Shown piece by piece: positions 1-11,998 of a DNA stretch of 47,517 bases; positions within the stretch are counted from its first letter, which is position 1; the number at the start of each line of letters is the position of its first letter. Below the pieces are notes generated by a model. The model ran no database searches. It was not told the DNA's origin and saw only the letters and a list, made by a program, of their open reading frames with translations. This DNA comes from Elusimicrobiales bacterium (GTDB taxonomy: Bacteria > Elusimicrobiota > Elusimicrobia > Elusimicrobiales > UBA9959): assembly GCA_024681855.1 (NCBI GenBank), contig JAILAB010000031.1, forward strand, positions 1-47,517. Reading direction: 5' to 3'. The translations under genes were made by a program, and so were the position numbers.

Positions 1-2532
1 CTCGGAAATCTGCACATGGGCTGGAACAGCGGTGCTACAGCCATAATAAAATCAACTGTGGAAAAACAGGAAATAAAGGTAGGGTACAATGTATCCGGAA
101 ATCATCTTATTGTTGATCATGAGCACAGCGGTCTTATACAGAATTCAAACATAATCATTGGCAATAACAATGCTTTAACGGCAAATGCTTCGGATCTTGT
201 AAACATAGGTACGTTTTATAATAATGGAACAATTACTTTTACAGGCGGCACCAATAATAATGTCATAAGCAAATATTCTGGGAACAGTTATTTGTATATA
301 ACAGGCGATGTTTCAAATGCCGCAGCCATAGATGTTACTTTCGTTGAAATTGATGAAGGGGCTTCGCTAACGCTTGCCGAAAACGGCGCGATAACACTTG
401 ATGGCAGTATTGAGAATAATGGAACGCTGAATATAAACGAGGCGGAATTTTCCGTGGCTCTCGGAGGCGCTGCATTAAATAATCATGGCCTTGTTTCATT
501 TGGCGATACGGGTACTTTGCAGGCTTATAATATTTTCAATCACGAAGGTTCCACCATGTCGGTAAGGAATATTGAGAACCTTACTTTCAATAATCTTGCC
601 AATAACGGCCTTCTTAACGTGAAAGGCACGCTTTCCAAAAGCGTATCCGGCTCAGGCACTGTTTCAGTGCTTAACGGCTCCCTGACGGTAAATGATGATG
701 TTTCAATTGGCAGCAACTCAACATTGATTACTGATCAGACGGAATTTACAGCCCGTGCCGGGCTTTTTGCAGCCCCTGTAACAAACAATGGCAGGCTTAA
801 TCTTTCGCAGGGAACGCTATCCCAGAACATAAGCGGGCCTTCCGGGCAGACATACATAGATTCCGGCAGCGGAACGGTAAACATAGCGGATAATGTTGTT
901 TTAAGCCAGAGCCTGATTTACAATGCCGGCGGCAGCACATTGATCGCAAATGCAGGTTCTTTTTCCGGAACAGACGAGGTGCGCAACAACGGCTCAATGG
1001 AGCTGACAGGCGGCACTTTGTCCTCCCCGGTTTCAACGGATGGTGCCGGACAGCTGTCAATATCCGGGAATGTGGCTTTGGAAGGAATAAGCATAGCCAA
1101 TAACATTAATGTAGGCAGCAATGCATCTCTGGACATAAGCAGTCATGCTGTTTCAGTAACAGGCAATATTGACATGTCAGGAATGCTTAAAATGCGCGTT
1201 TCCGGCATTTCTGCTGATTCTTCAGCTTACGAGGGCGGGAGCCTTAACGTAAATGGCACACTTGATATTGCTGCGGAAGGCACAAAGCTGGGCATTGTTG
1301 TTGACGGCGCGCTGGAGCGCGGTGAGCACACAGGCAATCTGCAGCTTATATCCGCAACAGCAATGAATGGCGAATTTGAGTCCCTGCAGGACCTGTCAAA
1401 TCACCGCTATGCGGTAACTTCCGCTGGCGGCGGGCTTTACAATATCGCCATGCTTAGAACCATAAGCGAAACAGTAAGCGAGGGAGGAGGAAACTCCAAT
1501 GTCTCGGCTGCTGCGGAAGCATGGGAAAATGTTTCAGGCCTTGGCAATGATAAGGCTGCCGCATTGAAAAATAAAATAATGGAACTTTCACAGCTTGGTT
1601 CCCCGAAAGATTATGTGAATGAGCTGAAAAAAATTATGCCAGGGGAAAGCAATGCCGCCCAGTCGGCTGCTTTGGGCATAATCAGCGAGGCAGGAAGGAA
1701 TCTTGGAAACAGAACGGAAGCAAGGCAGCTGGCCATGGCTGAATCCCGCTTCAGGGGCCTGGCTTCAGGAGACGCTGGCGCAAAAAATTCCGTATGGGCT
1801 AAGGCAATGGGCAGCTTTTCGTCAAAATCCGGTGCCGGAGAATTTGACAGCCTGGCTGCCGGAACAATGGCAGGCTTTGACCGCATTCTTGACAGCGGAC
1901 TTCTGCTTGGCATAGGTTATGCTTATTCCAGCATTGACGCAGATGCAGACGCGCATGACCTGACTGCCACAGGCCATTCCGTATTCCTTTATGCTGGCAG
2001 GGAACTTAATGATTCATGGAATCTGCATGGCAATATTATGTATGGCACTGCTGATTATGAGGACAAAACTTCAGAAGTTTCTTCAGAGTACAAGGTGCAG
2101 AATTATGGCGCGGAGGCAGTTGTAAGTTACAGGAAGGCTGGGAATTTCCTGCCGGAAGCGGGAATAAGATATACTCATATAGCGGCTGATGACTATAAGG
2201 ATTCTATAGGTTCGGAGATTTCTTCCGATGCCGATGATATATTCACTGGCATAGCCGGGCTGGGTTATTCTTTCCCATGGAAGGACTGGAAAGCCATGGC
2301 CAATATAAGGTTTTCCTATGACCTTATGAGCGATGACCGCAAAACCTCCGTTAAAATAGGAGATCAGTCCTACCATATAGTTTCTGATAAAATGGATCCG
2401 TTCGGAGTGGAAGCCGGCATATCCGGCTCAAAGGTCTTCGGCGGCATAGAGCTGAACCTTGCCTATGACTTCGCATATAAGAATGAGTATATGTCGCATC
2501 ATCTTTCAGCCAAAGGAACATACCGTTTCTGA
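1..2532 (+). CDS. Autotransporter, passenger plus beta-barrel (5' end outside window)
   Basis: This is a type V secretion protein. The reading frame is open from the first base of the window, so the start and signal peptide lie upstream and only about 843 residues are visible. The first ~480 residues are a low-complexity passenger rich in Asn, Gly, Ser and Thr with recurring hydrophobic-N-N-G patterns, typical of a right-handed beta-helix. After a helical linker, the last ~250 residues (from about base 1785) form an autotransporter beta-barrel: alternating hydrophobic and polar strands, many Gly and aromatic residues, and a C-terminal TYRF ending in Phe, the usual signal for barrel assembly by BAM. 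No protease or adhesion motif is recognisable in the passenger, so the exported function is unknown. A strong terminator follows. Confidence 0.88.
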   Translation, partial: LGNLHMGWNSGATAIIKSTVEKQEIKVGYNVSGNHLIVDHEHSGLIQNSNIIIGNNNALTANASDLVNIGTFYNNGTITFTGGTNNNVISKYSGNSYLYITGDVSNAAAIDVTFVEIDEGASLTLAENGAITLDGSIENNGTLNINEAEFSVALGGAALNNHGLVSFGDTGTLQAYNIFNHEGSTMSVRNIENLTFNNLANNGLLNVKGTLSKSVSGSGTVSVLNGSLTVNDDVSIGSNSTLITDQTEFTARAGLFAAPVTNNGRLNLSQGTLSQNISGPSGQTYIDSGSGTVNIADNVVLSQSLIYNAGGSTLIANAGSFSGTDEVRNNGSMELTGGTLSSPVSTDGAGQLSISGNVALEGISIANNINVGSNASLDISSHAVSVTGNIDMSGMLKMRVSGISADSSAYEGGSLNVNGTLDIAAEGTKLGIVVDGALERGEHTGNLQLISATAMNGEFESLQDLSNHRYAVTSAGGGLYNIAMLRTISETVSEGGGNSNVSAAAEAWENVSGLGNDKAAALKNKIMELSQLGSPKDYVNELKKIMPGESNAAQSAALGIISEAGRNLGNRTEARQLAMAESRFRGLASGDAGAKNSVWAKAMGSFSSKSGAGEFDSLAAGTMAGFDRILDSGLLLGIGYAYSSIDADADAHDLTATGHSVFLYAGRELNDSWNLHGNIMYGTADYEDKTSEVSSEYKVQNYGAEAVVSYRKAGNFLPEAGIRYTHIAADDYKDSIGSEISSDADDIFTGIAGLGYSFPWKDWKAMANIRFSYDLMSDDRKTSVKIGDQSYHIVSDKMDPFGVEAGISGSKVFGGIELNLAYDFAYKNEYMSHHLSAKGTYRF

Positions 2533-2608: not shown

Positions 2609-2935
2609 ATGGAAGGCTGTAAATTATCCGTAAAAATAACCGTTATGCGCAAGGCGGCTTATCATGATCTTATGGCAGAGCATGAAAATCCCATGGAAAA
2701 TCCCTGCCCAATGGCAGAGGGCATGGTGTTTATTTCAAGGCATGGCATGCGGCCTGAAGCCTTATGTGAAAATGCCTGGCCTTCCCTTGAGCCTTTTGTA
2801 AGGGAACTGTCCCGCGGCGGCGGGAATTTCTATGGCAATTGGATGAAAAACCCTAAAAGCGCAATGATTTCATGCAATGACGGCTTCAGGCCTGTGAGTT
2901 TTCTTTTGGAAGCGGAGGATGCGGAATCTTTATAA
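2609..2935 (+). CDS. TIGR04076 family protein
   Basis: This is a 108-residue protein of unknown function. It matches the small TIGR04076 family in its layout: an N-terminal strand with KITV, a CPMAEG turn, a segment like GMRPEALCENAW, and a C-terminal MISCNDGFRPVSF block containing the family-typical C-x-DG-x-RPV pattern. The conserved cysteines (residues 33, 53 and 90 approximately) suggest metal or redox chemistry, but no activity is established for the family. It is probably cytoplasmic, since there is no signal peptide or membrane segment. It stands alone between the autotransporter terminator and the Sel1 protein and appears to have its own promoter directly abutting the ATG. Confidence 0.72.
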   Translation: MEGCKLSVKITVMRKAAYHDLMAEHENPMENPCPMAEGMVFISRHGMRPEALCENAWPSLEPFVRELSRGGGNFYGNWMKNPKSAMISCNDGFRPVSFLLEAEDAESL

Positions 2936-2971
2936 ACATTATGAAAATCCGCATTCAATTCCGCTTTATTT

Positions 2972-5125
2972 ATGGCATCTGATAAACATTCACTCTTTCA
3001 AGAAGCCGCAAAGCTTGTCATAGCCGGCAAATACATTGCTGCCGCCAGGGCTTTTCGCGCGATTGGGGAATATGACGGCTTTCCTTTGAGCGATTGCTCC
3101 GTGCTTTTTGATGCCATGCTATGCCCCAATGCGGAAGAAGCAGGAAAAATGTTTAGGGCGGAGGCCTGCAAGGGAAATAAGCTTGCTGCCTGCTGTAATT
3201 TCCTTTCATGGCTGGATTATTCATCATGTTTTGTCAGCCGCGCAGCTGCTGATTTTGACATTTATGCGGCTCTTGAATGTTTGGAACAGGCTAAAAATCT
3301 ATGCGGCCCTATTGCCGCCAAGATGTCAGAAGTTTTTTTTGCCGGTGAGGTCATGTCAAAGCCTTTCAGGGCTTTTAAGGCAAAGCTTCGGAGTTTGGGC
3401 GAAGACCCTGAAGCCTTGCGCATTTTGGGAGATATTCATCTTAAAGGCATAAGCTGCCCTGTCAGTGAGAAAAGGGCAGCGGCTTATTATAAGTCTGCGG
3501 CGGAAAAGGGGAATGCCAAAGCCATGTTCAGGCTTGGCCTGCTTTATTTGTCTGGAGCTGTTCCATGCGGCAGTTCAGGAATGAAATCTCATTCCGGCGC
3601 AAGCCTTGCCATGGAACAGGCCTTAATTCTTTTCAAGTCCGCGGCAGCGCAAGGCCTGCCTGAGGCATTTCTTGAGACAGGCAAGGCCATATTGTCACGC
3701 ATGGTGCCTGGGGCGGCAATGGGAGATGCCGTGCCGCTAATAGAAAAAGCTGCGGAACTGGGCAGCGTTCAGGCATGGCGCATTTTAGGAAAAATGTATT
3801 TCTATGGCCTTGGCAAGGAGCAGAACCGCGATTTGGGTCTCAGGCTTATGGAACGTTCGTATATTGCCGGCGACCCTTTAGGCACATTTGAGACTGGCCT
3901 TGCCTATTATTATCATGGCCCTTTTCAGCAGGCGGAAAATATGAAAAGGGCATTTGAATGCTTTAGCCTTGCGGCCAGCCGGGGAATAGCCGAGGCCTGG
4001 AAAATGACAGGACGCATGTTTTTTCTTCCCGGCGCGGAAGGCAAAAGCCAGGCTGGCACCAAAAAAGACGATATTGCCGCAAGGAAATGCTTTGAAATGG
4101 CTGTTGAGCAGGGCTGCCTTTCCGCAATGCATGATTTGGCTGAACTGTATTATGACAGGGGAAAAGAGCCTGATTTCCGCAAAGCTTTTGAACTGTTTGC
4201 CGCGCTTGCGGAAACAGGTTATGCCCCGTCGCAGTACAGGGCTGCGCTTATGCTTAGGGATGGGATAGGCACGGAAGAAAACATGAAAAAAGCCTGTGAA
4301 CTGCTTTGCGGGGCTTCCGGCCAGGGCTATGCCGAAGCCTCATATCAGCTTTTTGAGTTTGCTCTGCGTGGCTTTGGCAGTTATAATTTCCGCTGCTTTA
4401 AGTCTTTTGATTTTTTACTGAAAGCTCTCCGCGAGGGCAGCAATTCCGCTTATCTTTTCATCAGAAATGGCAGAAAGAGCGATCATTTTCCCGTAATGCT
4501 TAAAGAACTCTTCTTTGAAAATTTTCTTTGCAATATGAAGAGGCTTCTTTTGTCAGGCAAGAGAAAAGACAGTTTTCCTTTTTTTCTTTTCGCGCTTGCA
4601 AATGCCGAACTTCTTGTGCCAGTTAAGAATCTGCCAGATAAGCCGGATACGGCGGCCTTAAATCAAAAACTGTGCGGAAGCAGGAAAGAAATGGATGAAG
4701 AGGCTTTGCTTGAAGGCTTAGGCCGGGCTATTCTGGGAACGGGAAGAATGCGCTGTTCCGCTGTGCTTGCAGAAGCAGAAACAGAAATATTTCCTTATGA
4801 CTTTTCTTTAGATGCCGGGCAAACAGTCAGGCCGGAAGAAGCAGCTGCCAGAAAGGCGGAAAAAATATTTCCTGTTTTTTCATGCCGTTCAGAAATACCT
4901 GCTTCCTGGCTAAAAAAATACCGTTTTCTGCCTATTCCGGCAGCCAGGTGCTTTGATTTCTTCTTAGGTTTTATGAAAAAAAACTCTTTCCCTTATGGGA
5001 TTGTTCTGGACCCGTTAGGCTCAAAGCCTCTTTTTCTTAGAAAAGGCTATGCTTTTCTGCTGGACAATCTTCCAGGCCTTGAACAGTATTACAGAAAGCC
5101 TTCGCCTGAACAATATCGCTGGTGA
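2972..5125 (+). CDS. Large Sel1-repeat (TPR-like) protein
   Basis: The 717-residue product carries a solenoid of Sel1-like repeats over roughly residues 130-470. Each unit shows the A-x-Y-Y/F-K-x-A-A-x-x-G-x-x-x-A pattern followed by L-G-x-x-Y-x-x-G, for example AAAYYKSAAEKGNAKAM near residue 165. The N-terminal 120 residues and the last ~240 residues are not repeats and match nothing I recognise. There is no signal peptide or lipobox, so it is probably cytoplasmic, unlike the second Sel1 protein in this window. Sel1 proteins usually act as scaffolds in multiprotein or stress-response complexes; no partner is evident here. The start is the ATG at 2972, with no convincing Shine-Dalgarno sequence. 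The gene converges on the MFS gene with a 43-base gap. Confidence 0.75.
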   Translation: MASDKHSLFQEAAKLVIAGKYIAAARAFRAIGEYDGFPLSDCSVLFDAMLCPNAEEAGKMFRAEACKGNKLAACCNFLSWLDYSSCFVSRAAADFDIYAALECLEQAKNLCGPIAAKMSEVFFAGEVMSKPFRAFKAKLRSLGEDPEALRILGDIHLKGISCPVSEKRAAAYYKSAAEKGNAKAMFRLGLLYLSGAVPCGSSGMKSHSGASLAMEQALILFKSAAAQGLPEAFLETGKAILSRMVPGAAMGDAVPLIEKAAELGSVQAWRILGKMYFYGLGKEQNRDLGLRLMERSYIAGDPLGTFETGLAYYYHGPFQQAENMKRAFECFSLAASRGIAEAWKMTGRMFFLPGAEGKSQAGTKKDDIAARKCFEMAVEQGCLSAMHDLAELYYDRGKEPDFRKAFELFAALAETGYAPSQYRAALMLRDGIGTEENMKKACELLCGASGQGYAEASYQLFEFALRGFGSYNFRCFKSFDFLLKALREGSNSAYLFIRNGRKSDHFPVMLKELFFENFLCNMKRLLLSGKRKDSFPFFLFALANAELLVPVKNLPDKPDTAALNQKLCGSRKEMDEEALLEGLGRAILGTGRMRCSAVLAEAETEIFPYDFSLDAGQTVRPEEAAARKAEKIFPVFSCRSEIPASWLKKYRFLPIPAARCFDFFLGFMKKNSFPYGIVLDPLGSKPLFLRKGYAFLLDNLPGLEQYYRKPSPEQYRW

Positions 5126-5168: not shown

Positions 5169-6389
5169 TTATTTCTGTATTGTTTTTTCTGACTTGTTCA
5201 GCGTTTCGCCGCTTTTAAGCACTGTTTTGTATTGGATTCTTATTAGCATTGCCGCGCTTATGAAGAAGCAGGCCAGTATTACCGTTTCCATGGCATGTAT
5301 GCCAAGAATGTCAGCGAAGCGGCTTTGGAATCCTGCAATGAGCATCATGGCTCCCCATGCCGTGAGCGTGTTAAGGCTGCCGAAAGCGGTTTTGTCTCCA
5401 GTGGAAGGGAACATTTGCGGAATGGTGATTATTAAGGCCATTGAATAAACCCGGTCTAAGAGCATAAAGGCCGCAATCATTCCTATTGTGAGGCCGGCAG
5501 CGAATTTGCCGTATATGAAAAGCGGAAGCAGAACAGCTGAAATGCCTATGCTTGCAAGCAGTGTTTTTTTCTGCCCAAAAATCTTTATTATTTTATTTGT
5601 TGAGAAATTTACAGCAGCCTCGGCCAGCCCTATTATCAGCAGCGCAAAGCTGATGTCTTTTATGTTCATGCCATAATGCTTGTAAAACCATATTCCGCAG
5701 AAGGAATAAAAGCCGAAATAGGCCATGCGGTTTATGGTTATGCCTATGTAATAGTTTAAGGCATGAGGCACTGAAAGGGCTTTTACATAAGGTTTTATTA
5801 TGCCGGAGCTTTTGTTTTCTTCCAAGTGCATATCCGCCTTTTCCGGAAAAAAGGCGTAAAGCAGAAGGCCGCTGCCTGTTGTAAGCGCGGCTATTATTTC
5901 CATTGGCAGCTGCCAGGCTATTTTCCATGCCAGCAAGCCTGCCAGCGGCACGCCTATTGCCGTGGCCAGCGGTCTTGCTGACATGAGCACGGCAATCATT
6001 GCCGGAAAATTATCCTTGGAAACTCCGTGAAATGTTATGCGCCACATAAGCGTGGCTATAAGGCCGGCTGCGAAACCGGCCGCCATGCGGAATATTATTG
6101 CTGCCGCAAAAGATGATGTGAGCGCAAAGCCTGTTTGTGCTATGCCCATTGCAAGCACTGTGCCTAAAAGCATTTTTTTTGCGCGGCCCATAGATATAAG
6201 CGCAGGCCCTAGCAGCAGCGCTAGGGCCGTTGCTCCGCTGCATACCGAAATTAGCAGCAGGGCAGATGCTTCCGCAATGCCAAAAGTTCTGCTTATCGGA
6301 TTCACCAAAGGCGAAATTGCATTGTCAATTGCATTGAATGCGAATATTAATATGAAAGAGGATATTATGGCAATTTTTTCTTTATTCAT
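5169..6389 (-). CDS. MFS transporter, last gene of the rSAM/ATP-grasp cassette
   Basis: The 406-residue protein is a major facilitator superfamily transporter with about 12 hydrophobic helices and a charged central loop around residues 185-200 (PEKADMHLEENK). The loop after helix 2 contains GPALISMGRAKK, the MFS motif-A position. The substrate cannot be read from sequence, but the set of genes upstream suggests export of a small peptide-like product or uptake of its precursor. It starts 44 bases after the ATP-grasp stop codon on the same strand and is very likely cotranscribed. The tail is Lys/Glu rich. Confidence 0.82.
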   Translation of the reverse strand: MNKEKIAIISSFILIFAFNAIDNAISPLVNPISRTFGIAEASALLLISVCSGATALALLLGPALISMGRAKKMLLGTVLAMGIAQTGFALTSSFAAAIIFRMAAGFAAGLIATLMWRITFHGVSKDNFPAMIAVLMSARPLATAIGVPLAGLLAWKIAWQLPMEIIAALTTGSGLLLYAFFPEKADMHLEENKSSGIIKPYVKALSVPHALNYYIGITINRMAYFGFYSFCGIWFYKHYGMNIKDISFALLIIGLAEAAVNFSTNKIIKIFGQKKTLLASIGISAVLLPLFIYGKFAAGLTIGMIAAFMLLDRVYSMALIITIPQMFPSTGDKTAFGSLNTLTAWGAMMLIAGFQSRFADILGIHAMETVILACFFISAAMLIRIQYKTVLKSGETLNKSEKTIQK

Positions 6390-6433
6390 TTCTTTTATTG
6401 GCTGTTCCGATATGATCTTGTTGTTATGCCTGG

Positions 6434-7687
6434 TTATGCTTTCCCTTGCAGTATTTTAAGCCCCAGTTCGGTAAATTCCGGATCATGGGAAAATACAGTG
6501 GCGGAGAATCCGCCCTCAAACGGGGGGGCGGTTATAACTGCCCCTTCGCTTGCCCCCGGCTCTGTTATGAGCAATGGCCGGCCATTTATTTTTCGGCCTT
6601 TGAACTGGCTGATGAGCGCAGCGGTGGCTGTTTCTTTTGTTTCTATGGCTTCACGGCAGGCAATGCTCATATTGCGCCATGAAGGGCCGAAGTATTTTTC
6701 CGCAAATTCCGTAACATAGCCGAAACCGTTGCTGCGGAAATTACATTCCAATGCTATCGGAGAGCAGGGATCCTCTTTTGTGAAAGCCCAGTCTAAATTT
6801 AAATATCCTCTTGCGCCTGAAAGCTGCATGGCTTCGGCAAGCCTTTTCGTGTATTCCTGAACGCGCATGCGGCCTTTTTCTTCCGGGTATGGATATTCGA
6901 ATCCTGTCCAGCCTCCGTTTTTGAATACCTGCTTGTCTGTGCCTATGAATGATGCTGAGTCGGCATCCAGATATGCCAGCGAGCCTGCCACTGAGTTTAG
7001 ATTAAGAAAAGGCTCTATCAGCACTTTGCCTCCGCTATACCAGCTGGAAATGTCTTTTAGAAGTTCTGCGGCCTTGCCATGCTTATTGCCTGCGCCTCCG
7101 GCATATTTAACTTTGCGCAGCATTATCTCATTGTATTTTGCCGCAGAAGCCTTTATGGCGTTTTTCAGCTCTGGCAGCGAAGAGGCTTCCAGCCCCGGCA
7201 CTGTCGGAATGTTTAGCGTAGCGGCAAGTTTCTTGAATGAGCCTTTGTCATTAAGCACATTTATCATGCCGTGCCATACCAGTTCCATGTGCGTGAGCTG
7301 TGTGGTAAGCCCCAGCGCTCTTGCCAGCCGCACTATTCTCGGAGTTTCTATGAAAGGCTCTATTTTCCAGATGCCATTTTCAGTTTTTTTCTTTAAGGCA
7401 TTAAGCGTTTCATCGCATTCCAGTATGGAATCCGCCATTGTGTATGGTTCGGAAAGATGATTAAAGCGGAAAAGGCATTGGCTTTTGGGCTGCAATTGAA
7501 GCAGATGGATTATATAATCGGCGAAATCATCAGGCACCTGCGTGGGCAATACGAGGCAGTCCCCGGGCCTTAGGCATAACATGAAACGGGGAAATATGCG
7601 CATGGTCTTGGTTGCAACATTATGCGCATAAAAAGGGTCATCCTCCGGGAGAGCTTCCTCAGCGTTAGCAACCCATAGCCTAGGCAT
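6434..7687 (-). CDS. ATP-grasp ligase with pre-ATP-grasp domain (PGM1-like)
   Basis: The 417-residue protein has an N-terminal region with LCLRPGDCLVLPTQ (about residues 37-50), which resembles the pre-ATP-grasp domain found with PGM1-type peptide ligases. An ATP-grasp fold follows: IMLRKVKYAGGAGNKHG (about 189-205) fits the ATP-binding Lys and glycine-rich loop, KVLIEPFLN the adenine-binding strand, and ALECNFRSNGFGYVTEF (about 309-325) the metal-binding E-x-N motif. ATP-grasp enzymes join a carboxylate to an amine through an acyl phosphate, often in peptide natural products or amino-acid dipeptides. Its start overlaps the radical SAM gene by 8 bases, so the two are translationally coupled. 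The exact substrates are unknown. Confidence 0.75.
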   Translation of the reverse strand: MPRLWVANAEEALPEDDPFYAHNVATKTMRIFPRFMLCLRPGDCLVLPTQVPDDFADYIIHLLQLQPKSQCLFRFNHLSEPYTMADSILECDETLNALKKKTENGIWKIEPFIETPRIVRLARALGLTTQLTHMELVWHGMINVLNDKGSFKKLAATLNIPTVPGLEASSLPELKNAIKASAAKYNEIMLRKVKYAGGAGNKHGKAAELLKDISSWYSGGKVLIEPFLNLNSVAGSLAYLDADSASFIGTDKQVFKNGGWTGFEYPYPEEKGRMRVQEYTKRLAEAMQLSGARGYLNLDWAFTKEDPCSPIALECNFRSNGFGYVTEFAEKYFGPSWRNMSIACREAIETKETATAALISQFKGRKINGRPLLITEPGASEGAVITAPPFEGGFSATVFSHDPEFTELGLKILQGKA

Positions 7688-8642
7688 AGAATGTTCCGTC
7701 GCAGATCATGTTTTTTTTGTATTTATTGTGATTGAATCCTTTTACGCTCTTCAAGGAGCATAATACAAATTCAAAGCCTCTGCTGTTTAGCGCATCTGCC
7801 ATTTTTTCCGCAGAAGCCTTTATTGCTTCATTTTTCAAGGCTTGAGATGCAGTGTCCTCCTGTCCTGGCAGAACGGAACGCGTTCCCGTAAAATCATAAT
7901 CTGCCATTATCTTTTTCAGCAGTTCCGCCGGCATGGCTTCTTTCATTGCCGGCATCATGCCAGAAGAAAACAGCAGATAAGAGAACATTACTCTGTTCAG
8001 CCTGCGTTCCCTTAGCATGTCAAGAAAGGCTGTGATTGCTTCCTCTGAATCATCTATTCCGGCTACCATAGGGTCAAGATGTATTGTGGTTTTTACGCCG
8101 GCTGCATTTAGCCTGGCTGCTGCGTCAAGGCGGTCAGAAAGCTTTTTCAGGCCTCTGTCCAGGCTTTCAAGAGGAGCGGGGTTTAATGCTGCGGAAGGGC
8201 GCACGGCCTCATTATAGGAAAACTTTTCTTTGTATTTTTCCATAAGCTGTAAAGACTGCTCGTCAGGGATTCCCTTTGTTGTTATTATTATCCTGCGTAT
8301 TTTTGATTCCGCAAGCGTCTTAATTACCTGATAAGAGAGTCCGTTTCCGGCAAAAGACGGCGTGAAAATATCTGTGTATCTTGAAAGCTTCAGTATGTCT
8401 ATTTCGCCTGAATCAGCTTTTTCTTTTATGCGGCGGAGCAGCTCTTCTTCAGGAAAAAGCGGCACAGGCCTGTTAAATTGCGTTTTCTTTTCTTCAAGCG
8501 TGTTAAGCACTATTTTACGGCTTCTTGCATAGCAGTATGGGCAGGAATGTTCGCAGCCTGTCCAGGGTTCCATATAATGGTATTTGCCATACCAGCATGT
8601 TCCTAATGGTCCTTTTGAAAAAAGCTCTATTGTTTCGCTCAT
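7680..8642 (-). CDS. Radical SAM protein (spore-photolyase-like, COG1533 type)
   Basis: The 320-residue protein carries the radical SAM cluster motif C-x3-C-x2-C at C30, C34 and C37, inside GCEHSCPYCYARSR. The CPYCYAR form is characteristic of the spore-photoproduct-lyase-like branch (COG1533). Later blocks such as RIIITTKG and TIHLDPMVAG fit the successive beta strands of the half TIM barrel. There is no SPASM or B12-binding domain. It would cleave S-adenosylmethionine to a 5'-deoxyadenosyl radical; the target molecule is unknown. A good Shine-Dalgarno sequence (AGGAG) precedes the start. The 3' end overlaps the ATP-grasp gene. Confidence 0.85.
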   Translation of the reverse strand: MSETIELFSKGPLGTCWYGKYHYMEPWTGCEHSCPYCYARSRKIVLNTLEEKKTQFNRPVPLFPEEELLRRIKEKADSGEIDILKLSRYTDIFTPSFAGNGLSYQVIKTLAESKIRRIIITTKGIPDEQSLQLMEKYKEKFSYNEAVRPSAALNPAPLESLDRGLKKLSDRLDAAARLNAAGVKTTIHLDPMVAGIDDSEEAITAFLDMLRERRLNRVMFSYLLFSSGMMPAMKEAMPAELLKKIMADYDFTGTRSVLPGQEDTASQALKNEAIKASAEKMADALNSRGFEFVLCSLKSVKGFNHNKYKKNMICDGTFYA

Positions 8643-8711
8643 AAGCTTCTCCTTTTTGTTCTATGCTTATATAAAATCTGATATTTAGCCCTTAAAAATT
8701 TTTAGAGTTGT

Positions 8712-9380
8712 TTATTGTTTTATGGCTATAATCGTTCCATAAAATATGCTCGCAGGCTTTTTTAAAATTACCTTCCAGCCTGCATTGGCAAAAAAACTTT
8801 CCCATTCGGAAGCTCCTGCTGCAAATTCCTCATTAAAGCTATGGAGGAGGTCTTTTTTCTTAGCTTCCCAAGAGCTGCCATAGTATTCAGCGCAGGCTTC
8901 CATAAGCCTTGGCATATTTTGCTGTATCTCGCTGCGCGGAAAGTCAAAATAAATCCCGTCTTCCATTAGGAAAATTGCGTTTTTCTCAAAAGCCGGCGAA
9001 ATATTTATGAGAAACTGCTGTTTTTCCGGATTTGTGAGATGATGCAATGCTTTGCGGGAAAAGCCTTTTGTGAATTTGCGTTGCCCTGGATTGAATTTCA
9101 TGAATTCTGTAAGCAAAAGCTCAACATTGTTGAGTCCCTGCAGGTTTTTTTTCGCTTCAGCCAGCTGAGGCTCTGAAATGTCTATGCCCAGAGCTTTATT
9201 TACTTTTGCAGCGGCTAAAGCTAGAAAACTGCCGTTGCCGCAGCCAAAATCAATAATGGAATCTTCCGGCTTAAGATCCAGCGCTTCAAGGCATGGCGCA
9301 AATTCTTTAGCCGATGTGGCGTAAAGCTCATTGTAATGAGCCGCATAATCTTTATCTTTCCAGTCTCCGTCTTTTGCCAT
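8712..9380 (-). CDS. Class I SAM-dependent methyltransferase
   Basis: The 222-residue protein has methyltransferase motif I IIDFGCGNGSFLAL (about residues 40-53), the acidic loop ALGIDIS after the second strand, and a motif II/III region ending in LMEDG. The acceptor is unknown. I chose the ATG at 9380 over one 60 bases upstream (9440): the longer form adds a lysine-rich, unconserved-looking tail, and a perfect TATAAT lies at 9395-9390, which would place transcription start just before the 9380 ATG. The gene sits 69 bases upstream of the radical SAM gene on the same strand and may form one unit with it, although the gap leaves room for a second promoter. Confidence 0.82.
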   Translation of the reverse strand: MAKDGDWKDKDYAAHYNELYATSAKEFAPCLEALDLKPEDSIIDFGCGNGSFLALAAAKVNKALGIDISEPQLAEAKKNLQGLNNVELLLTEFMKFNPGQRKFTKGFSRKALHHLTNPEKQQFLINISPAFEKNAIFLMEDGIYFDFPRSEIQQNMPRLMEACAEYYGSSWEAKKKDLLHSFNEEFAAGASEWESFFANAGWKVILKKPASIFYGTIIAIKQ

Positions 9381-9395: not shown

Positions 9396-9488
9396 ACTAA
9401 ATTTCTTTAAATGAAAAACAATATTGTTTGTTTTGCGCAATTGCCGGGCATGCGAAATTTTGCTTTATAAGCACATTTCAACAGCATA

Positions 9489-10751
9489 TTATATGTTGTT
9501 TACATACCATCTGCCGTGAATCTGCTCTACGCCATATCTTTTATGTTTTATTTCCTGTTTTGAAAAAATGCCTATTGCGCCTGCCGGGATTCTTGCCGGG
9601 CCTGCCGGCTCCATGAGCACATAAGTTTCGCCTTTGTATTCCAATGTCTCGTCTTTTTCTTTTGCAGGCATGGTAACGCCGATAAGATAGTGCTTGTTTA
9701 TGTCTATGCCTATTACCTTAAAATATCCTGTTTCAGCGATAAGCACAGCCAGCAGCAGGCTTTTAGCGTCGCAGTCTCCCTCGCCTCTTATAAGCGTGTC
9801 TGCCGAAAGTCGCAGCCCGCCTGTGTATTTGCCATTTTCTGATGCAGGCAATGCTTTATAATCAACTGCCGTTTGAACAAATGCCAGTAGCGCTTCAATC
9901 TTTTCCCTGTCTGTATATTTATGCCTGTTAAATGTTCCATTTAATTCTGAGGCTAATATTTTAAGAATGTGCCTGTCATTTTCCACAAGATTCGTTATGT
10001 CAGGGTAAATGCTGTCATTCATGATGAAGCCTCTTGCCCTTAGAAATCTTTTGGTTTTGTCCTCGCAGCTGACAGGTATTGACAGCGTATGTTCTTTTGC
10101 CCTTCTTCTTTTGCTTTTGATTTTTCTTTTTTTCTCAGCTTTCTGTTTTGCCCTAAGCTGTTTGTCTGTATAACATAACTTTTCAATTTCCTTATTCGTG
10201 TATCCGAATTTTGAAACATAATAGGAATAGTCATCTTCAGACATTGAAAATTCGGCATGAATCTCATTGCCTTTGTAATCGTAGAAAGTGTATTGTGCGT
10301 ATTTTTTTCCGCGCTCCGTATAAAGTTCCTTTTTTGGTTTTTGAGTTGCGCTGTTTTCTTGTTTTCTTACAACTGGAACTTCTATTGTTTCCCATTGGGA
10401 TTGAGCTTTTGCTGATAATCCTTGCCTTTTCAGCTCGCTTAAAAATTCAGCTTTTTCTTTGTTTGTAAGAAATCTTTTTTCTGTTTTTATCAGCCTGCCG
10501 TTTTTTATCGTCATGGCTGTTTCAAGTATTGAGCCGTTAGCATTGATCTTTCTTATTATCCGGCGGCAATTTTTTGGGTATTTCGCAGACGTATCTTTTT
10601 CTTTTGTCTGCATTGAAAATGAAATACTGTCAAAAGCGCAGGCTGGCTGCATTAATGCTGGCGGCATTATCAGTGCTAACAGTAAGATTATAACAGAAGC
10701 GGGAAACGCTCCGGACAACCGTAACGTTTCCCGCCAGGCATGCTGCCGCAT
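9489..10751 (-). CDS. Secreted transglutaminase-like cysteine protein
   Basis: The 420-residue product begins with a basic stretch and a hydrophobic core (SVIILLLALIMPPALM) ending in a plausible signal peptidase site after ACA, residues 37-39. A Lys/Arg-rich central region follows. The C-terminal third is a transglutaminase-like domain: EGDCDAKSLLL provides the catalytic Cys327, and NKHYLIG the His354. Such domains in bacteria act as peptidases or cross-linkers on envelope proteins. The gene starts only two bases after the stop codon of the M20 peptidase gene, so the two are cotranscribed. A perfect inverted repeat lies over the signal-peptide codons and may affect its translation. Confidence 0.8.
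   Translation of the reverse strand: MRQHAWRETLRLSGAFPASVIILLLALIMPPALMQPACAFDSISFSMQTKEKDTSAKYPKNCRRIIRKINANGSILETAMTIKNGRLIKTEKRFLTNKEKAEFLSELKRQGLSAKAQSQWETIEVPVVRKQENSATQKPKKELYTERGKKYAQYTFYDYKGNEIHAEFSMSEDDYSYYVSKFGYTNKEIEKLCYTDKQLRAKQKAEKKRKIKSKRRRAKEHTLSIPVSCEDKTKRFLRARGFIMNDSIYPDITNLVENDRHILKILASELNGTFNRHKYTDREKIEALLAFVQTAVDYKALPASENGKYTGGLRLSADTLIRGEGDCDAKSLLLAVLIAETGYFKVIGIDINKHYLIGVTMPAKEKDETLEYKGETYVLMEPAGPARIPAGAIGIFSKQEIKHKRYGVEQIHGRWYVNNI
10699..10734 (-). other. Inverted repeat over the start of the transglutaminase-like gene
   Basis: GCGGGAAACG at 10699-10708 is matched perfectly by CGTTTCCCGC at 10725-10734, with a 16-base loop. It begins 18 bases inside the coding region. 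No T-run follows, so it looks more like a translational or processing element than a terminator. Confidence 0.5.
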
Positions 10752-10753
10752 AA

Positions 10754-11998
10754 TTATTTGCTGGAAGCGGCAAGGCTAAGAGTGGTTATTGCGAACACCT
10801 TAGCGTCATTAATGATATAGTCTATTTTTGTGCTTTCATTTGGCATGTGCTCCGTGCCGTTCAGCTGTGAATATACTACGGAGGAAAGGCCCATTTGGCG
10901 GAAGAATGCGGCTACGGTGCCGCCGCCTATGCCGTATGCGCGAGGCTCCTTTACGCCTAAAACCTCGGTGATTGCGGCTTTAAGGCATTTCACTATGGGC
11001 GCTTCAGGGTCTGTGGGCGGAGCCGCCTGCACTTCCTGATGGGGCTTGAATGAAATTGTTACGCCGTATTTCTTTTCAACTTCATCGGCTATGCGGCGCA
11101 TTTCCGCTTTTACGTCTTCAAGCTTGTATTGCGGCATGACACGGCAGTCCATGTAGAAAATATCTTCGCCGGGAATTGTGTTTATGTTTGGCACATTAGC
11201 TTCTTTCTTGGTAGGCTCAAATGTGCTGTACGGCGGCTCATATAAGTCATCTTTTGCGGGGAAGGTGTCATATAGCGACTGATAGCGGGTAATAAGATCT
11301 GCCGCTGCCTTGAATGTGTTTTTGCCTGCGTTCGGGCGGCTGCCATGGCACTGTACGCCTTTTGTGGTTACCTGCAGCCATAGTATGGATTTTTCAGCAA
11401 CCTCTATAAGGCTGCCGTCTTCAACGCCGGAGTCAGGAACGAAGAAAACATCGTTTTTGCCGAAAATTTCCGGGCGGTTGGCGGCTATATAATCTGCGCC
11501 ATAGCCTGAGCCTGTTTCTTCGTCAGCGCAGAAAAGCAGTGCCATGTCATAATCGGGGCGGTAGTTCAGTTCCATCATGGCGCGGGCTACCAGAAGGCTG
11601 GAAACTATGGCCTGCTGATTATCCTCTACGCCGCGGCCATAAAGCATTCTGTCCTTTAATTCCAGTTTCCATGGATCCGTGTTCCAAAGCTTCAGGTCTC
11701 CAGGAGGAACCACATCCATGTGTCCCATGAACCAAACTGTTCTGGAGGAATCTTTTCCTTTATACCTTGCGACAAGGTTTGGGCGTATGCCGTTCTTGGC
11801 CTCTTTATGAGGGGCATTTATCCATTCTATTGAGTCAAATTTGAGTTTTTTCAGTTCACCTTCCAGGTATTTTGCCTTGTCATACTCGCCTTCTCCGCCT
11901 GATGATGGGGAAAGCGCCGGAATGGCGGTAAGGCCGCGCTGAAGCTCAACGGCATAATCTTCATAAGATTCTATCTTTTTCAGAATTTCTTCTTTCAT
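10754..11998 (-). CDS. M20 family zinc metallopeptidase (ArgE/DapE type)
   Basis: The 414-residue protein has the M20 metal-site motifs in order: GHMDVVPPG (about residues 92-100, His ligand and catalytic Asp), GRGVEDNQ (bridging Asp), DEETGSGYG (general-base Glu and ligand), and GTEHMPNE near the C terminus (His ligand). A dimerisation domain with HGSRPNAGKNT lies between. It would hydrolyse an acylated or dipeptide-type amino-acid substrate in the cytoplasm; the exact substrate cannot be assigned. The start has AGGAG six bases upstream. The stop codon is two bases before the start of the transglutaminase-like gene. Confidence 0.9.
   Translation of the reverse strand: MKEEILKKIESYEDYAVELQRGLTAIPALSPSSGGEGEYDKAKYLEGELKKLKFDSIEWINAPHKEAKNGIRPNLVARYKGKDSSRTVWFMGHMDVVPPGDLKLWNTDPWKLELKDRMLYGRGVEDNQQAIVSSLLVARAMMELNYRPDYDMALLFCADEETGSGYGADYIAANRPEIFGKNDVFFVPDSGVEDGSLIEVAEKSILWLQVTTKGVQCHGSRPNAGKNTFKAAADLITRYQSLYDTFPAKDDLYEPPYSTFEPTKKEANVPNINTIPGEDIFYMDCRVMPQYKLEDVKAEMRRIADEVEKKYGVTISFKPHQEVQAAPPTDPEAPIVKCLKAAITEVLGVKEPRAYGIGGGTVAAFFRQMGLSSVVYSQLNGTEHMPNESTKIDYIINDAKVFAITTLSLAASSK

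Follow-up and report, generated by a model that had tools for sequence, protein, structure and literature searches.

A four-gene cassette of Elusimicrobiota as a candidate compact natural-product pathway pairing an ATP-grasp ligase with an unusual radical SAM enzyme

A row of four genes in the genome of an Elusimicrobiales bacterium raises the question of whether they act together and, if so, what they might produce. The genes lie on positions 1 to 47,517 of contig JAILAB010000031.1 (assembly GCA_024681855.1), a stretch of 47,517 nucleotides (hereafter the window) that is part of a 2.0-Mb draft genome. They encode a class I S-adenosylmethionine (SAM)-dependent methyltransferase (MT), a radical SAM enzyme (RS), an ATP-grasp ligase (AG) and a major facilitator superfamily transporter (MFS). 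A reading made from the sequence alone had described them as four tandem minus-strand genes, two overlapping by 8 bases and the others within 69, had assigned them to these families, with RS in COG1533 and AG likened to PGM1, and had proposed a natural-product pathway with an exporter. The layout was borne out: open reading frames (ORFs) were found for all four genes (Table 1), with a 69-bp gap between MT and RS, an 8-bp overlap between RS and AG and a 44-bp gap between AG and MFS; the mechanical ORF of MT starts at a TTG at 9440, upstream of the ATG that we list. The families stood as well. Domains were called with the curated cutoffs of Pfam and NCBIfam, and all four proteins score above the Pfam cutoffs (E-values: MFS_1, 1e-21; PreAtp-grasp, 9.5e-14; Radical_SAM, 1.1e-8; Methyltransf_25/31, ~1e-13); in NCBIfam none of them was assigned above cutoff among the matches listed, and weak matches there back the COG1533 placement.

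The four genes are, in our view, one real system, and several lines of evidence support this. Firstly, they occur together. We examined 101 relatives and 341 genomes of the phylum, and scanned 84,980 public species genomes with an RS alignment, which gave 32 loci; a scan of genome contigs with a single AG sequence gave no match. Among the relatives, AG is present in 18 of 101 and RS (strong matches) in 17 of 101, always adjoining each other, the exception being G067, which has AG without RS. In the phylum as a whole, RS was found in 24 genomes, AG in 26, MFS in 25 and MT in 29, and the 24 genomes with RS contain AG in every case and MFS and MT in 23 cases each. The objection that the genes might not co-occur therefore failed, since all four are present in 23 of the 24 RS-bearing genomes. 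One exception is G094, a 92% complete draft in which neither MT nor MFS was detected; in another, G232, RS is cut by the end of the contig (L116). Fisher tests of co-occurrence gave p values of ~3e-29 or lower, for genomes that are related and uncorrected for phylogeny.

Secondly, the order of the genes is conserved. RS is directly followed by AG in all 32 loci, and about 21 loci, the window, G095 and G230 among them, have MT-RS-AG-MFS in this order on one strand amid unrelated neighbours. Looking for the same order in related genomes, as the sequence-only reading had advised, recovered it there (a same-genus relative, G001, has the cassette on a contig of 8,488 bp) and also in records labelled UBP9, Riflebacteria and Cyanobacteria, labels that are those of single metagenome-assembled genome (MAG) contigs. 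Other arrangements exist: a record labelled Oligoflexia (L087) has the order RS-AG-MFS-MT; g14 and related genomes (L049, L050, L054, L073, L076) carry MFS-MT on the opposite strand beside RS-AG; and two g15 genomes (G078, G081) have RS-AG alone, with MT and MFS next to each other at a locus far away (L106, L107). RS-AG can thus be regarded as a core and MT-MFS as a second unit, both of which persist when they are unlinked.

The bond between RS and AG extends to their reading frames. The 8-bp overlap recurs in 28 of the 32 loci, L087 included (L059 being counted from its ORF start), and is likely to reflect translational coupling. It is gone in L064, L066, L074 and L076, which all retain the F-Y-A ending of RS, written with other codons in L064 and L076. 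The preservation of this ending despite the loss of the overlap indicates that the tail is selected in the protein itself, and not only as a start site for AG; the C-terminus of RS is an invariant C-D/N-G-x-F-Y-A tail.

Thirdly, the gene trees are congruent. Trees of RS and AG for 29 loci have 20 of 26 splits in common, against a mean of 0.3 and a maximum of 3 after shuffling, so that the proposed check, a comparison of the ATP-grasp gene tree with that of the radical SAM enzyme, came out in favour of a joint history; RS and MT share 15 of 23 splits, and AG and MT 14 of 23. Mean AG distances are ~1.7 times those of RS, and this greater divergence would fit a fixed radical reaction combined with a more variable coupling partner. 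In the RS, AG and MT trees alike, the clade of the window joins Elusimicrobiota with UBP9-labelled and rumen records. Such a mixed clade in all three trees fits transfer of the whole cassette, with the phylum labels again being those of single MAG contigs, and the cassette is probably horizontally mobile.

What do the individual proteins suggest about the chemistry? RS matches Radical_SAM (PF04055) with 35.9 bits against a cutoff of 29.5, and its AlphaFold model has a mean pLDDT (predicted local distance difference test score) of 90.3, with low confidence near residues 11-20 (block mean 59). In the fold search, the six best matches are all spore photoproduct lyase (template modelling (TM) score ~0.6, best E 2.5e-8), well ahead of the others, with the maturase SkfB of a ribosomally synthesized and post-translationally modified peptide (RiPP) pathway ranking lower; when PDB sequences were searched with the profile of RS, only spurious matches to haemoglobin came up. 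RS thus resembles spore photoproduct lyase in its fold and its CX3CX2C motif, but the two are only 14% identical, and RS has three additional invariant cysteines (16, 295 and 314) as well as the invariant FYA terminus. Moreover, just 3 of 30 RS family members match the spore photoproduct lyase model TIGR03886 at all, the best with an E-value of 7e-5. Spore photoproduct lyase uses a catalytic, hydrogen-donating cysteine in its barrel. No cysteine between RS residues 38 and 294 is invariant among the 30 members, position 87 being serine or cysteine in a ratio of 17:13, so this catalytic cysteine would have no invariant counterpart in RS. To judge from their conservation, C16, C295 and C314 could hold an auxiliary [4Fe-4S] cluster that leaves one position open, an arrangement known from certain radical SAM enzymes. 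Finally, RS scores 43 bits with the COG1533 subfamily PA0069 (cutoff 360) and 41 bits with Rv2578c (cutoff 430); these weak scores below the NCBIfam cutoffs indicate a separate subfamily, related to those two, that appears to be undescribed.

The assignment of AG is more specific. Its AlphaFold model has a pLDDT of 93.4, the PreAtp-grasp domain PF18604 was found in 25 of 30 family members, and all 30 have D299, K148 and the GGxGN loop. The best PDB folds are 8YND (E 5e-30, TM 0.80), PGM1 (TM 0.8) and BesA (TM 0.76), followed after a drop by PurK-type enzymes (TM ~0.6) and BacD (TM 0.54); a profile search likewise gave 8YND (2e-29), BesA (9e-15) and PGM1 (1.5e-14). With the pheganomycin peptide ligase PGM1 (3WVQ/3WVR) and the Streptomyces protein 8YND, AG shares the succession of PreAtp-grasp and ATP-grasp domains over nearly the full length, at ~17-21% identity. 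BesA (L-propargylglycine--L-glutamate ligase, 8YI6), a stand-alone ATP-grasp ligase that links two amino acids, one of them non-proteinogenic, has the same fold and ExNxR motif; however, AG is only 17% identical to it in the fold match and reaches 23.5 bits with the BesA equivalog model NF042917, below its cutoff of 750. By domain order, fold and motif, AG is a PGM1/BesA-type peptide ligase, for which ligation is predicted. To our knowledge, the bes pathway contains no radical SAM enzyme.

MT has seven residues that are invariant in 27 of 27 members (D40, G46, G48, D67, R109, H113 and H114). Its nearest solved relatives in a profile search are phosphoethanolamine N-methyltransferases, which makes a small-molecule methyl acceptor likely. 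MFS has weak profile matches to the exporters SotB and MdfA as well as to SLC16 and SLC37 carriers, and efflux families dominate its weak NCBIfam matches; transport is likely to be outward. Two further observations concern this gene. The MFS match in G095 (L048, G095:C57:8659-9816) crosses a TGA in the translation used for the search and a shifted frame start opens an ORF there, so that a frameshift or an overrun of the alignment is possible; and G155, a draft that is 88% complete, has an MFS gene of the same family (G155:C44:6608-7777), RS, AG and MT not being found there.

Which pathway, then, might these proteins form? The recurrence of the gene order, the congruence of the RS and AG trees and the failure of the objections raised against it support the proposed natural-product pathway with an exporter, and gene content, co-occurrence, the two modules, intact catalytic motifs and fold families form its observed basis. 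We consider it somewhat more probable than all other explanations together that the cassette is a minimal, non-ribosomal, four-gene small-molecule pathway for an exported metabolite made from free amino acids or similar compounds; its substrates, the sequence of reactions, the direction of transport and the role in the cell are given here as we infer them. RS would alter an amino-acid-like substrate by means of a 5'-deoxyadenosyl radical. AG would use ATP to turn a carboxylate into an acyl phosphate and let it react with an amine, so that a dipeptide or amide arises. MT would methylate this product or an intermediate, and MFS would carry the product out of the cell. RS and AG would be the inseparable, translationally coupled core, probably acting in sequence, and their pairing suggests that RS supplies the substrate of AG or acts on its product. 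The pairing of MT with MFS suggests finishing and export by a second module, in which methylation might serve self-protection. The order of the steps is a guess.

Some observations weigh against this pathway. The cassette has no self-resistance or regulator gene, which are common in antibiotic clusters, and the nearest solved relatives of MFS include facilitators besides exporters. In addition, four genomes (G012, G020, G030 and G003) have MT without RS, AG and MFS. In these genomes the lone MT adjoins an M20 hydrolase gene (L110-L113), which looks like loss of the three other genes, with MT as a relic, or like an additional function of MT. G067 keeps AG and MT at separate loci (Table 1), without RS or MFS, which can be read as decay or reuse.

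An unlikely alternative is that the cassette belongs to a RiPP pathway whose precursor is very short or encoded elsewhere, with AG adding a residue as PGM1 does and RS cross-linking or epimerising the peptide. PGM1 couples a non-proteinogenic acid to a ribosomal peptide, and the pheganomycin cluster contains radical SAM and C-methyltransferase genes, plus a non-ribosomal peptide synthetase (NRPS) gene (PMC8939145). Radical SAM enzymes are known in RiPP pathways, SkfB among the RS fold matches being one case, and tiny precursors exist, such as the five-residue biarylitide precursor (PMC13417212). Graspetide loci also resemble the cassette in combining an ATP-grasp ligase with a methyltransferase, an exporter and sometimes a radical SAM enzyme. 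However, AG is of the PGM1 type, and PGM1 is only distantly related to the graspetide ligases (PMC8939145). Neither a ribosomal peptide partner like that of PGM1 nor a linked graspetide-like precursor was found. We compared ORFs of 15-80 codons in the 1.5-kb flanks and the gaps of 33 loci, and no conserved precursor-like ORF emerged, the families common to most loci being fragments of the M20 neighbour and a shared g15 neighbourhood; micro-ORFs of 4-26 codons in the 250-bp flanks yielded no common peptide beyond the apparent ends of M20, MT and RS. The earlier remark that no precursor gene is visible can thus be extended, for conserved ones in the flanks, down to 4 codons, which favours free amino acids as the substrate rather than a peptide made by the ribosome. 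Across the loci, genes within the operon mostly overlap or lie at most 50 bp apart, and the neighbours differ completely between loci, so that a precursor gene linked to the cassette would not have moved along with it. Rfam found no RNA element in the window between 2500 and 14000.

Equally improbable to us is an intracellular modification, of a cofactor, tRNA, lipid or cell-wall building block, with MFS moving a precursor or being incidental. In its favour, the COG1533 member spore photoproduct lyase has DNA as its substrate, ATP-grasp enzymes are found in purine and cofactor pathways too, and the cassette has no resistance gene. Nevertheless, the patchy presence of the cassette (24 of 341 genomes), with RS varying within genera, speaks against a housekeeping function. 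MFS co-occurs with RS as tightly as MT does and stays with MT away from RS-AG, and the fold of AG is nearest to free-standing peptide ligases rather than to PurK or biotin carboxylase. Uptake and salvage, in which MFS would import a compound for conversion by RS, AG and MT, is quite improbable: the SLC16 and SLC37 matches besides SotB and MdfA are in its favour, but the enzymes build, by ATP-costing ligation and methylation, rather than degrade, the weak NCBIfam matches of MFS are mostly to efflux families, and MT-MFS behaves as one module. Chance adjacency of the four genes is refuted by conserved order, an 8-bp overlap in divergent loci, congruent trees and co-occurrence, and a defence island, to which the sole PADLOC match points (MT, to a generic methyltransferase stretch of mad2), is very improbable too, as no other defence model matches and no RS copy was found on the viral contigs or plasmids searched. 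AG gave a single weak partial match on plasmids, in Kocuria.

Two genes next to the cassette were weighed as further members of it. The M20 metallo-hydrolase flanks the whole cassette in L040, L042, L043 and L066 and stands one gene further off in the window, and in part of the phylum it is conserved beside MT, with or without the other cassette genes. We did not accept it as a fifth member: besides being a PRK13983 equivalog, it adjoins just some of the cassettes in Elusimicrobiota and none of those in the other carriers. Also rejected was the 420-amino-acid protein that separates M20 from MT, since it has this position in the window only and its relatives occur in genomes without the cassette. 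Relatives are also encoded elsewhere in the same genome (two on contig C60) and among other members of the family, and they resemble it mainly in the C-terminal two thirds; by eye, this part looks transglutaminase-like. Beyond MFS lie genes for autotransporter-like, small and Sel1-repeat proteins (window 16-2532 (+) and 2609-5125 (+)), and in the same-genus relative (L039) these three also come after the cassette.

Table 1. Positions of the cassette genes, their conserved features and the loci discussed in the text
Feature	Position	Strand	Details
MT, class I SAM-dependent methyltransferase	8712..9380	-	222 aa; ATG at 9380
RS, radical SAM enzyme, COG1533 / spore-photoproduct-lyase fold	7680..8642	-	320 aa
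AG, PreAtp-grasp / ATP-grasp ligase, PGM1-BesA-8YND type	6434..7687	-	417 aa
MFS transporter	5169..6389	-	406 aa
RS/AG overlap	7680..7687	-	TTC TAT GCC TAG (F-Y-A-stop), also ATG CCT AG (M-P) in the AG frame; from sequence
RS extra invariant Cys16 (LGTCW motif)	8595..8597	-	conserved 30/30
RS CX3CX2C (C30, C34, C37), radical SAM [4Fe-4S] ligands	8532..8555	-	conserved 30/30
RS extra invariant Cys295	7758..7760	-	conserved 30/30
RS extra invariant Cys314	7701..7703	-	conserved 30/30; 7 residues before C-terminus
AG PreAtp-grasp domain (residues 33-127)	7307..7591	-	PF18604, 52.2 bits (cutoff 27.5)
AG E314-x-N316-x-R318 (E-x-N-x-R metal/ATP motif)	6734..6748	-	conserved 30/30; aligned with PGM1, BesA and 8YND
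420-aa protein between M20 and MT	9489..10751	-	no match in Pfam or NCBIfam searches
M20 metallo-hydrolase, PRK13983 equivalog	10754..11998	-	neighbour of MT, one gene away
AG and MT loci of G067 (L055, L115)	G067:C1:99705-100910 and 294544-295137		single-contig genome, 1,643,562 bp

Returning to the exported, non-ribosomal metabolite, we rate the cassette as a probable, compact natural-product pathway built on an ATP-grasp ligase, with a radical SAM enzyme as its unusual partner. The combination of these four known kinds of family appears to be undescribed; a search of open-access literature, which leaves aside most subscription journals, turned up no paper on it. Tentatively, and with chances that we put a little below even, it may represent an unrecognised class of natural product, in which a radical SAM enzyme with the fold of spore photoproduct lyase, and with an extra Fe-S site held by three cysteines, would alter a free amino acid or create a C-C or C-S bond and pass the result to a PGM1-like ligase, so that three enzymes and a transporter would suffice for a secreted modified dipeptide in uncultivated anaerobic phyla. 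In our opinion, genome-mining rules built on NRPS, polyketide synthases or RiPP precursors would probably overlook it. We know of few functions for members of COG1533 other than spore photoproduct lyase, and for this radical SAM group the cassette points to a probable part in biosynthesis and to an enzyme that acts with it. At ~4.2 kb, the four-gene pathway is small enough for transfer as a unit to a laboratory host, and it comes from phyla with almost no characterised metabolites.

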